NCBI RefSeq assembly: GCF_019837165.1
Contig: NZ_JAGYHC010000001.1
Span: 2,046,001 to 2,110,000, forward strand
DNA length: 64,000 nucleotides
Direction: 5' to 3'
Origin: Virgibacillus sp. NKC19-3
GTDB lineage: Bacteria; Bacillota; Bacilli; Bacillales; Amphibacillaceae
A model generated the notes under the pieces. It saw only the letters and a program-made list of their open reading frames with translations. It did no database searches and was not told the DNA's origin. A program made the position numbers and the translations under genes. The stretch's first letter is position 1, and every line of letters begins with the position of its first letter. Shown piece by piece: positions 1 to 31,595 of this stretch.

Positions 1-9
1 TTAGAATTG

Positions 10-29
10 CCCTGTTAGTCAGGGTTTTT
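10..29 (+). terminator. Intrinsic terminator of an upstream gene
   Basis: A 5-bp stem (10-14 with 20-24) and a TTAGT loop are followed directly by five T. It would end a transcript entering from before the window. In B. subtilis the gene before era is cdd, but no coding sequence for it is visible here. Confidence 0.6.
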
Positions 30-124
30 CTTTTTACATAAGGTTGTTTCTACTTCTGGCACAAAAGATAGAAACTGCGGCGTAGTGAAAGTAACTTTAT
101 GAGAAGGCTCTCGTTCTAATGATA

Positions 125-258
125 GTTGAGCGTAGGATACCGCTACGGAAACACATTTCGCTTTTCGCGGGGGCTGATGAGCCTCCTCGTGCTAACCGCA
201 CTTCGGTGTCTCATCTAGGCCTTTGCTCCCGCAGGAGTCTTCATGTGTTTCCTCCGCT
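125..258 (-). repeat. Structured dispersed repeat, copy 1 (minus orientation)
   Basis: Read on the minus strand this block carries the same ordered landmarks as three other blocks in the window: AGCGGAGG, a GACTCC-GCGGGA segment, a TGAGACACCGAAGTGCG-like segment, a GGCTCATCAGC segment, and an end with CCGTAGCGGTA. Copy 2 (374-512) lies head to head with it, so the two could fold into one large hairpin. The GC-rich, hairpin-forming core resembles elements scattered through Bacillaceae genomes. The short open frames here are not genes. Confidence 0.7.
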
Positions 259-373
259 GGTGGTCCCATTCCTACCGTTAAACTGCATTTGTAAGCATAT
301 CAAACATATCGAAGCTCTCTTACCAGTTCGGTGTTGAATACGAATGAAATTTAGCGACAGAAACTGTGACATT

Positions 374-512
374 AGCGGAGGAAATACACGGAGACTCCGG
401 CGGGAAGAAAGGCATCGGTGAGACCCAGTAGTGCGCACGTCAGGAAGGGGCTCACCAGCCGCCCTAAGGTGCGCGAAGTTGTATTTCCGTAGCGGTATGC
501 CTACTCTCAACC
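374..512 (+). repeat. Structured dispersed repeat, copy 2 (plus orientation)
   Basis: This is the plus-strand partner of copy 1. It holds AGCGGAGG, a GGAGACTCC-GCGGGA segment, GGTGAGACCC, GGGGCTCACC followed by AGCCGCCC, AAGGTGCGCGAAGT, and CCGTAGCGGTATG. GGTGAG near the 5' part can pair with CTCACC near the 3' part. Flanking sequence is also inverted: an AAACTGCG segment near 75 mirrors a CGCAGTTT segment near 543, so about 60-560 behaves as one inverted unit. No coding function is supported. Confidence 0.7.
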
Positions 513-739
513 AAAGTTTGCAAAATGAAATATCACTTTGTCGCAGTTTACATCAACTGTGATGATTAAAACGAAAAGTACGTTATGAATAGGTTCTTAC
601 AACCAATCATGTGAAAATACCAGGGGTTGTGTCTTATTTTATAGAAGAAGAGAAACTTTTTAAAGGTTTTGTCGAATGGATGAAAGCTGGGTATATTTGT
701 AGTATTATAAAACATAAGAAGTGCATGGAGGATTACAAG

Positions 740-3897: not shown

Positions 3898-5982
3898 ATG
3901 GGGAAAGATGCCTTATTTGAAATTGGACTCGAAGAATTACCTGCACGATTTATCGATGATGCAGAAGATCAACTTGCTGAGCGGACAAAAAATTGGTTGG
4001 AAGAAGAACGAGTATCTTACGGAAGTATAACAACGTTTTCTACACCAAGAAGACTCGCCGTAAACATTCAAGACATGGCAGAAGAGCAAACAACGATAGA
4101 AGAGGAAGCAAAAGGACCAGCGCTAAACATAGCTAAAGATGAAGAAGGCAAGTGGTCAAAAGCAGCATTAGGCTTCACAAAAGGGCAAGGAAAAACAGTA
4201 GAGGATATCTATACAAAAGAGGTAAATGGAACCTCCTATATTTTTGTTAAAAAACATATCGAGGGAAAGAAAACCACGGATTTATTACCCGAGTTTAAAG
4301 CAATCATTACGTCCATCCAATTCGGAAAAAATATGCGTTGGGCTGAGGAAACGCTAAGATATGCTCGACCGATCCGTTGGCTTGTAGCTTTGTTCGGTGA
4401 AACTGTGATTCCTTTTGAAATTGCTCAAGTAAAAACAGGTAATAAAACATTCGGTCATCGGTTTTTAGGAGGAACAATCACACTCAAAAAGCCATCAGAA
4501 TATCAATCCGCTTTGCGTAAAAATTTTGTTTTGGTTGATACCAATGAGCGTGAGCAGTTGATTTTAGACGGAATAAAGAGGCTGGAAGAAAAGGAAAACG
4601 TCCAAATTCCCGTTGACCAGGAACTACTGGATGAAGTACGTAATTTAGTGGAATATCCAACTGTATTTATTGGTTCATATGATCAAAAGTTCCTGCAGTT
4701 GCCTTCAGAAGTATTAATCACATCTATGAAAGAGCATCAACGTTATTTTCCTGTGAAGTCTAAGGATAATGATCTCCTTCCTTATTTCGTTGGTGTTAGA
4801 AATGGCGATGACCACGAGCTTGAGACTGTTATAAGGGGAAACGAAAAGGTACTTCGTGCACGGCTGTCGGATGCGCAGTTTTTCTATGAAGAGGATCAAA
4901 AACATTCCATTGATTCCTATTTAGAAAAACTAAAGCGTGTTGTTTTCCAGGAAAAGTTAGGAACGATCAGTGATAAAGTAAAGCGTGTGGTTCATCTTAC
5001 CACCAAGCTGGCAGATTTATTGAATATTGATGAAAAGGCAAGAGATATAGCTGTAAGGGCTGCAGAAATAAGTAAGTTCGATTTAATGACAAATATGGTA
5101 AATGAATTTACCGGTTTACAGGGAGTAATCGGAGAAAAATACGCTCTTCATTATGGTGAGGATAAAAATGTATCGAAAGCAATAAGGGAGCATTATTTAC
5201 CTAAGCAGGCAAATGGGGAGCTACCTGAGTCACTTGCAGGTTCGATTGTAAGTGTTGCTGACAAACTGGATACCATTGTAGGCTGTATTGCCGTAGGGTT
5301 AATACCAACAGGTTCAGCAGACCCGTATGGTTTGCGTAGACAGGCGACAGGGGTACTTCGTATCTTGAAAGACAATAAGTGGAATGTTTCATTCGAGCGT
5401 CTGTTAGACATCACCCAAAATCTATACCAACTTATGGATATTGACCAAGAGGATAGTGAAAAAGTGAAAGACAACCTGCATGAATTTTTCCAGCTTCGTA
5501 CTGCGTATTTGCTCAACGAAGTACACATTGAACAAGACATTGTGCATGCAGTGCTAAATAGGGAAATTGGTGTTGTACATTATACATTTTCAAAAGCGAA
5601 TGTCTTAACAGCAAAACGTAATGACGATCAGTTTAAGCATATTCAGGAAGCGTTGGTTCGTGTCTTAAAGTTATCAACCAACTCCAATCAATCAGACATA
5701 TATCCGGCATTTTTTGAGACAACAACAGAGCGGACATTATTTGAAATGTATCAATCTGTATGCGGTAACTACCATGAAGCTAAGCAGGAAATGAAAGCAG
5801 ATTGCGCTTTGGCCAAACTTGGGGAACTAGCTGATCCTATTCATCATTTCTTTGAATATAATATGGTAATGGCTGAAGATAAGCAGCTCCGGGAAAACCG
5901 TCTTGCCCTTATAAATAAGATTGCTTATTTAATAACCGACTATGCTGATTTGTCAGCTGTAGAGTGGAAACAACACTTTTAA
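3898..5982 (+). CDS. glyS: Glycyl-tRNA synthetase beta subunit
   Basis: The beta subunit provides the tRNA-binding part of glycyl-tRNA synthetase. The 694-residue product has the usual family length, the N-terminal FEIGLEELPARF signature, and an HD-like domain around 380-440 with KFDLMTNMVNEFTGLQG. Its ATG follows the glyQ stop with no gap, and its AAGGAGG site lies inside the end of glyQ, so the two are translationally coupled and share the glycine T-box. No frame damage is visible. Confidence 0.97.
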   Translation: MGKDALFEIGLEELPARFIDDAEDQLAERTKNWLEEERVSYGSITTFSTPRRLAVNIQDMAEEQTTIEEEAKGPALNIAKDEEGKWSKAALGFTKGQGKTVEDIYTKEVNGTSYIFVKKHIEGKKTTDLLPEFKAIITSIQFGKNMRWAEETLRYARPIRWLVALFGETVIPFEIAQVKTGNKTFGHRFLGGTITLKKPSEYQSALRKNFVLVDTNEREQLILDGIKRLEEKENVQIPVDQELLDEVRNLVEYPTVFIGSYDQKFLQLPSEVLITSMKEHQRYFPVKSKDNDLLPYFVGVRNGDDHELETVIRGNEKVLRARLSDAQFFYEEDQKHSIDSYLEKLKRVVFQEKLGTISDKVKRVVHLTTKLADLLNIDEKARDIAVRAAEISKFDLMTNMVNEFTGLQGVIGEKYALHYGEDKNVSKAIREHYLPKQANGELPESLAGSIVSVADKLDTIVGCIAVGLIPTGSADPYGLRRQATGVLRILKDNKWNVSFERLLDITQNLYQLMDIDQEDSEKVKDNLHEFFQLRTAYLLNEVHIEQDIVHAVLNREIGVVHYTFSKANVLTAKRNDDQFKHIQEALVRVLKLSTNSNQSDIYPAFFETTTERTLFEMYQSVCGNYHEAKQEMKADCALAKLGELADPIHHFFEYNMVMAEDKQLRENRLALINKIAYLITDYADLSAVEWKQHF

Positions 5983-28730: not shown

Positions 28731-29005
28731 GAGGCTCGGACAAAACAAACGTGTTTCATTAAAAAGACGAACATTATCAAACTTAGCGTAGGAAATATGC
28801 GGAGACTCCAGCGGGAGGGAAGGCATAGGTGAGACACCGAAGTGCGATAGCAATCTTTTTTGCGAGGAGTGCTGCCCCTCGAAGTCGCTTGCAACACGAA
28901 GCGCACAAGGGGGCTCACCAGCCGCCCTAAGGTGCGCGAAGTATATTTTTAGAAGCGATGTATGTTCGGAATTTATTTGTTAAAAACACTTTTGTCCCAG
29001 CCCCT
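28731..29005 (+). repeat. Structured ~275-bp repeat with inverted ends, copy 3
   Basis: Ends are inverted: GAGGCTCGGACAAAA at the left against TTTTGTCCCAGCCCC at the right. The inside carries the same core as copies 1 and 2: GGAGACTCC-GCGGGA, GGTGAGACACCGAAGTGCG, GGGGCTCACC, AGCCGCCC, AAGGTGCGCGAAG. It is about 90 percent identical by eye to 31322-31595. It looks like a non-autonomous, MITE-like unit; it also places a hairpin between converging genes and may act as a terminator. Confidence 0.85.
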
Positions 29006-31321: not shown

Positions 31322-31595
31322 GAGGCTGGGACAATTCAAACGTGTTTCATTAAAAAGACGAACATTGCCAAACTTAGCGTAGGAAATATGTGGAGACTCC
31401 AGCAGGAGGGAAGGCACAGGTGAGACACCGAAGTGCGATAGCAATCTTTTTTGCAAGAAGTGCTGACCCTCGAAGCCGCTTGCAACACGACGAGCACAAG
31501 GGGGCTCACCAGCCGCCCTAAGGTGCGCGAAGTATATTTTTAGAAACGATGTATGTTCGGAATTTATTTGTTAAAAACACGTTTGCCCCAACCTC
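31322..31595 (+). repeat. Structured ~275-bp repeat with inverted ends, copy 4
   Basis: Nearly identical to copy 3 (28731-29005) in the same orientation. Left end GAGGCTGGGACAATTCAAACGT and right end ACGTTTGCCCCAACCTC form imperfect inverted termini. Copies 3 and 4 are 2.3 kb apart and bracket the unknown membrane protein gene and glcK. No open frame of note lies inside. Confidence 0.85.

Follow-up and report, generated by a model that had tools for sequence, protein, structure and literature searches.

BIMEs and REPINs are paired inverted hairpins that occur in many intergenic places. Among repeats of related bacteria, bcr1, bcr2 and bcr3 of the Bacillus cereus group are described, in the part of the source available, as intergenic, MITE-like sequences present in many copies and often situated in untranslated regions (PMC3446304), and Bhal-1 of Bacillus halodurans as a stem-loop repeat family of 74 bp with 36 copies (PMC2267715, likewise in part). 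Bcr1 is also named as the Bacillus example in the accessible portion of a paper on REP sequences, and the accessible text of a MITE review holds no mention of Bacill, Firmicutes or ISL3. Titles and opening lines of abstracts in the open-access literature yielded no description of the element reported here, and in the excerpts that contain it GGCTGGGACA occurs only as a printed PCR primer. The window studied here is the whole stretch of 64,000 nucleotides from Virgibacillus sp. NKC19-3 (NZ_JAGYHC010000001.1, 2,046,001 to 2,110,000, forward strand), near the start of which a pair of inverted repeats lies upstream of era. Our analysis points to positions of about 42-595 being, very probably, a MITE-like transposable element that carries no genes, with a dedicated control of era improbable.

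An inverted hairpin pair between dgkA and era

The gene upstream of the repeats has its stop codon at 2-4 and was assigned to dgkA by Pfam (DAGK_prokar, 122.8 bits against a cut-off of 22.3), while a profile search gave no NCBIfam match for it. The gene starting at 740 encodes the GTPase Era (NCBIfam), whose closest named relatives among 80 named loci, from Ornithinibacillus caprae and Oceanobacillus bengalensis, share 82% identity with it. The element body spans about 42-595, limits that follow from comparing the copies and the congener spacers and that are wider than the 60-560 of an earlier sequence-only reading. It lies between a terminator-like site after dgkA (9-25, plus strand) and a promoter-like region of era (669-708, plus strand), both outside the element. 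The former was the one site returned by a consensus scan of 1-800, where shuffled sequences gave a mean of 0.6 (about chance level), and by eye both congeners have a comparable hairpin with T-run in this position. The same scan gave no terminator-like site inside the element and so does not bear out the idea that the unit is itself a terminator. Promoter-like sites numbered four on both strands of 1-800 (shuffles, mean 1.4). The block TTTGTCGA...(A/G)TGAAA...TAGTATNATA precedes era in all ten spacers compared (window, L095-L100, L104, L177 and L178) and includes TGTCGA(A), which we take to resemble a Spo0A box.

Read from the left, the element begins with a degenerate outer end A of GGCTGTTTTC... 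type (42-66, plus strand, by eye) and the inner terminal repeat T, GATAGAAACTGCGGCGTA (67-84, plus). There follow a reversed hairpin of the h1 type, copy A (141-259, minus), a central spacer without assigned strand (260-372) with a T-like internal copy, at four mismatches, at 356-373, and a forward h1 hairpin, copy B (373-495, plus). An inverted T with four mismatches (537-554, minus) and a degenerate outer end B of GGCTCTTTTC... type (555-595, minus, with a limit set by eye and good to a few bases) complete it. By eye, a possible left target-site duplication, TTACATAA, lies at 34-41 (no strand) and also precedes the element in congener G002; its candidate right partner, TTACAACC at 597-604, agrees with it in five of eight positions, also by eye, which is not convincing on its own, the copy being too worn. 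The two reading frames of at least 60 amino acids in the window element (72 and 89) both run through the repeats, and the small frames in the element copies appear to be chance-like and not genes.

The two copies are indeed inverted relatives, A (258-125, minus) matching B (374-511, plus) at 75.5% over 139 columns (E 1e-19), and the inversion extends to the outer flanks, with AAACTGCG at 72-79 and CGCAGTTT at 542-549. The inverted arms 169-293 and 339-463 are 71% complementary, and those at 137-155 and 480-498 are 95% complementary. Folded as RNA, 60-560 reaches -237 kcal/mol (z -13.4), a strength that a long inverted repeat must give. The branched RNA that had been proposed was not recovered, since in the minimum-energy structure A pairs with B along what is mostly a single long rod. 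Taken singly, copy A folds with unusual stability on its own strand (z -3.65) and with somewhat raised stability on the other (-2.68); copy B does not exceed shuffled sequences on either strand (z -0.50 and -1.07). No Rfam family scored above its cut-off in the window element or in those of its copies that were scanned; one scan listed only two rows, both sub-threshold (MIR837 at 28 bits against a cut-off of 117, DUF805b at 11.8 against 35.6).

Dispersed copies, their ends and their target duplications

The sequence-only reading named the absence of further copies in the genome, and of covariation in the stems, as what would count against it. Further copies exist: with 40 candidate stretches scored in each case, copy A has at least 45 matches and the whole unit at least 81 rows, the latter overlapping and on both strands. 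Mapping of the unit's pieces on 45 merged genome stretches revealed elements with the inner repeat T (GATAGAAACTGCGACGTA) at either limit and, beyond it, two different outer ends, A and B, reading GGCT(G/C)TTTTC. Counting the own genome, 19 of 41 have the A-end, no more than 22 candidates having been scored in each. We read 20 such sites from six further genomes, two of them from congeners and four from other genera. The unit, for the most part its hairpin, is matched in 39 of 61 Bacillaceae-like genomes searched, again counting its own. The dispersed copies thus have terminal inverted repeats in common, as MITEs do. They are also short and non-autonomous, as expected of MITEs, with T-to-T lengths of 102-761 bp and no transposase inside.

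The suggestion that a mobile unit had inserted as a pair is upheld for the family, because 8-bp duplications flank whole hairpin-bearing units. Across 19 elements the flanking octamers have a mean identity of 0.69, compared with 0.38 when the pairings are shuffled (z 7.5, no shift). This set keeps two mispaired-looking pairings (own1966724 and L188) and one repeated element (the second L181 row). The signal is strongest at 8 bp, the runner-up among lengths 2-12 being a z of 3.05 at length 7. When a shift of one base is allowed, nine of the 19 match at seven or eight of eight positions, as against 4.6% in shuffles. Three loci, L183, L186 and L210, have perfect duplications, each with a reversed and a forward hairpin inside, although scores are weak (23-28 bits) for the second hairpin of L210 and for both of those of L186. 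By its features, then, the element is a MITE. In the own genome, 28 A/B elements were placed, all of them intergenic according to crude reading-frame predictions, under which six overlap a predicted frame by 1-168 bases; by the same crude calls their neighbouring genes are codirectional in 18 cases, convergent in six and divergent in four.

Some elements have an interior that is inverted relative to their outer ends. With 17 selected interiors oriented by their ends, which were assigned partly by eye, opposite-strand matches were seen between 1692522 and 177522 (92% over 337) and between 1692522 and 1967997 (83% over 398) in the own genome, and between L208 and L209 (98% over 177 and 92% over 355); 177522, 1967997 and L209 have degenerate B ends. 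Recombination between inverted T repeats would explain such interiors.

We also searched for a transposase with these ends. None was found among 35 ISL3 loci (L219-L253), where the best A or B match anywhere was 18 of 24 bases, and a search of seven genomes that bear the element drew a blank for ISL3 in six. In 17 of the 35 loci we could place both ends, by a search that required GG(C/T)T starts and a duplication of at least 7/8; they read GGCTCT... or GGTTCT... leading into TGTTGGGG or TGTGGTGG. We therefore do not class the element as an ISL3-derived MITE, only the first bases of the termini agreeing in those 17 loci, and an ISL3 driver was set aside on similar grounds: the style of the ends and the 8-bp duplications are alike, yet no copy among the loci examined has these ends. 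Among plasmids, one record from Parageobacillus matched 26 nt of the A-end (E 0.03); the 8 kb inspected there carries no annotated transposase.

Order, covariation and spread of the hairpins

Two models describe the hairpins, which are about 120 nt long: h1, the paired repeat upstream of era, and h2, a second subfamily. In clusters of at least two hits, each of at least 30 bits, the hairpins run reversed-then-forward in 34 of 34 (32 of type -+, one -++ and one --+), and at 20 bits in 38 of 38. The stretches are a non-random sample, chosen by their match to the unit, hairpin or A-end (to Era for the named loci), and the clusters are related by descent, so that 34 of 34 does not amount to 34 independent events. 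T-bounded elements show the same order in 21 of 21; their listing has 35 rows, three of them nested sub-rows, and includes five rows with one forward hairpin, three with one reversed hairpin and six with none. The window element belongs to the less common h1/h1 kind, found also at 2439143, at 2830237 and in L084. In such an order, a transcript in either direction would meet first a reverse-strand hairpin and then one of the proper strand.

The stems covary, the second point on which the earlier reading had depended. In 57 distinct h1 copies, 98.3% of the cells of 29 pairs are paired against 93.9% in shuffles, and 12 of the 29 pairs have double changes against 5.7 in shuffles, a level that none of 500 shuffles reached; in slid controls the paired share is 32-43%. 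Two circumstances favour this result, namely that the structure comes from this very alignment and that the aligned rows are related; the alignment was drawn from 64 distinct near-full-length hits with seven omitted (L013, L015, L025, L067, one of L085, L204 and L210). In a strand test of h1, pairs of the plus-strand fold, a fold chosen on that strand, gave 43 G-T against 10 A-C, whereas those of the minus-strand fold gave 15 against 21; the union of the folds gave 48 against 29 and the nine pairs common to both 10 against 2. For h2, with 15 sequences, the counts were 13:5, 11:6 and 10:5. An action of the hairpin at the RNA level is thus only suggested. In the 3' arm of both h1 and h2, at many loci, the alternative modules GCGGAAAGC and AAGGT(G/C)CGC occupy the same place, and they look as if they had been exchanged between copies.

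The h1 hairpin is also carried by a second element family with different, GGCTGGGAC-type ends. Two of its members lie in the window (28733-29002 and 31324-31593, both plus strand), each with one h1 hairpin bearing an apical insert. This insert of about 60 nt at the hairpin tip is common to a subset of GGCTGGGAC-type elements, namely these two and L069-L074. In L214, one hairpin is apparently nested within another. When ends were sought, at set mismatch limits, within 130 nt of each of 20 h1 hits from loci L076-L094 of relatives, two hits had a GGCTGGGAC end, two a T repeat and 16 neither; by eye, degenerate versions of the ends are present in part of this last group (L077 and L088, for instance) and absent from the others. 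Since most hits are without either end, h1 is probably more widely spread than either element family. In L092 (1430-1690), h1 stands mid-way in what by eye is an apparent third inverted-repeat kind, with ends of TGTCCG...TGTGTAAA type.

The covariation exceeds what a passive passenger would need, and this counts against the MITE account as we give it. It may be that the hairpin travels as a passenger among palindromic elements of unrelated kinds and is kept in this one as a divergent, invertible pair because it acts as strand-specific RNA, a reading that we regard as unlikely. Were it true, any insertion or T-repeat flip would leave a crossing transcript with one correctly folded hairpin towards its 3' side.

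The era site and competing explanations

Ten dgkA-era spacers were compared by eye: those of the window, of two congeners and of seven loci among the 80 named ones, nearest by Era identity. An A/B element is present in the window and in both congeners (with a cut A-end in G001), at the same place and with different interiors; a similar element lies in L096, and L095 and L097, both Oceanobacillus, have a GGCTGGGAC-type element. No such element was seen in L098, L099, L100 and L104. That the other family occupies the Oceanobacillus site points to a permissive space after the terminator. The common place and differing interiors fit an old insertion with turnover of its interior, and repeated insertion at this site may be an alternative. 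In L097 (Oceanobacillus profundus) an inverted pair of Bacillaceae-1 RNA (RF01690) matches lies downstream of era (4127-4195, plus, and 4233-4300, minus).

These spacers weigh on the proposal that the unit is a small RNA or leader of the era operon, one long folded transcript kept for its effect on era. Covarying stems, the fold (z -13.4) and the presence of an element at the site in all three compared species of the genus would agree with it. Set against them are the many copies elsewhere in the same genome, interiors that differ between congeners at this very site, the four of ten spacers without the element and the position of the promoter-like block, which is kept in every spacer and stands after the element. 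We consider this explanation very unlikely, and the element is probably not a control of era.

Still less probable is that two separate single-hairpin elements came to lie side by side by chance. The T-like repeat directly before copy B does hint at assembly from two, but a single order of orientation in every hairpin cluster and target duplications that flank whole pair-bearing units disfavour such an origin in general; for the rise of the h1/h1 subtype it is possible. A REP pair spread by a RAYT tyrosine transposase is hardly credible: hairpins come in inverted pairs and many copies, and an open frame of 253 codons in the genome encodes a Y1 transposase domain (L192, 3882938-3883273), but this RAYT-like gene, one of seven Y1 matches and the one read, has a different, unrelated palindrome beside it (GGGACGAGGAACCTGTCCC, by eye), the hairpin measures about 120 nt rather than 20-40, and 8-bp duplications fit a DDE transposase.

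In the MITE account that we favour, the element would have long imperfect inverted ends (outer A/B and inner T), generate an 8-bp duplication and be mobilised in trans by a DDE transposase. The ends, duplications and copy number are seen on the family; for the transposase, which we infer, the ISL3 family is our best guess. In its interior, covarying hairpins would form a divergent pair in the order h(-), h(+). Judging from its position downstream of the dgkA terminator-like site, the insertion probably took place before the three compared species of the genus split, and the interior may afterwards have been exchanged, deleted or inverted. The element would be tolerated there because dgkA seems to own a terminator and era its own promoter. 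A repeat common in Bacillaceae-like genomes is thereby given limits and a proposed mechanism, and its fixed divergent order, covariation and inverted interiors make RNA action of the hairpin and active switching of the interior questions that can be tested.

How does the element stand beside the systems already described? The bcr1-3 repeats are alike in being intergenic and MITE-like, are described from another group and, in the part of the source available (PMC3446304), without mention of two-subfamily divergent hairpins or an inverted interior, so that it is by description that they are set apart. Bhal-1, a stem-loop repeat of a related bacterium, may or may not be a piece of h1, again as compared by description from the accessible part of the source. 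Bacillaceae-1 RNA (RF01690) is a small RNA repeat of the same bacteria and occurs as an inverted pair in L097; neither the window nor any element copy that was scanned matches it. BIMEs and REPINs share the paired inverted hairpins and differ in size, ends and the 8-bp duplication. ISL3-family insertion sequences have termini that differ from those of the element past the first six bases, and the element is without a transposase, but in the loci read here they resemble it both in their GGCTCT/GGTTCT termini and in their 8-bp duplications.
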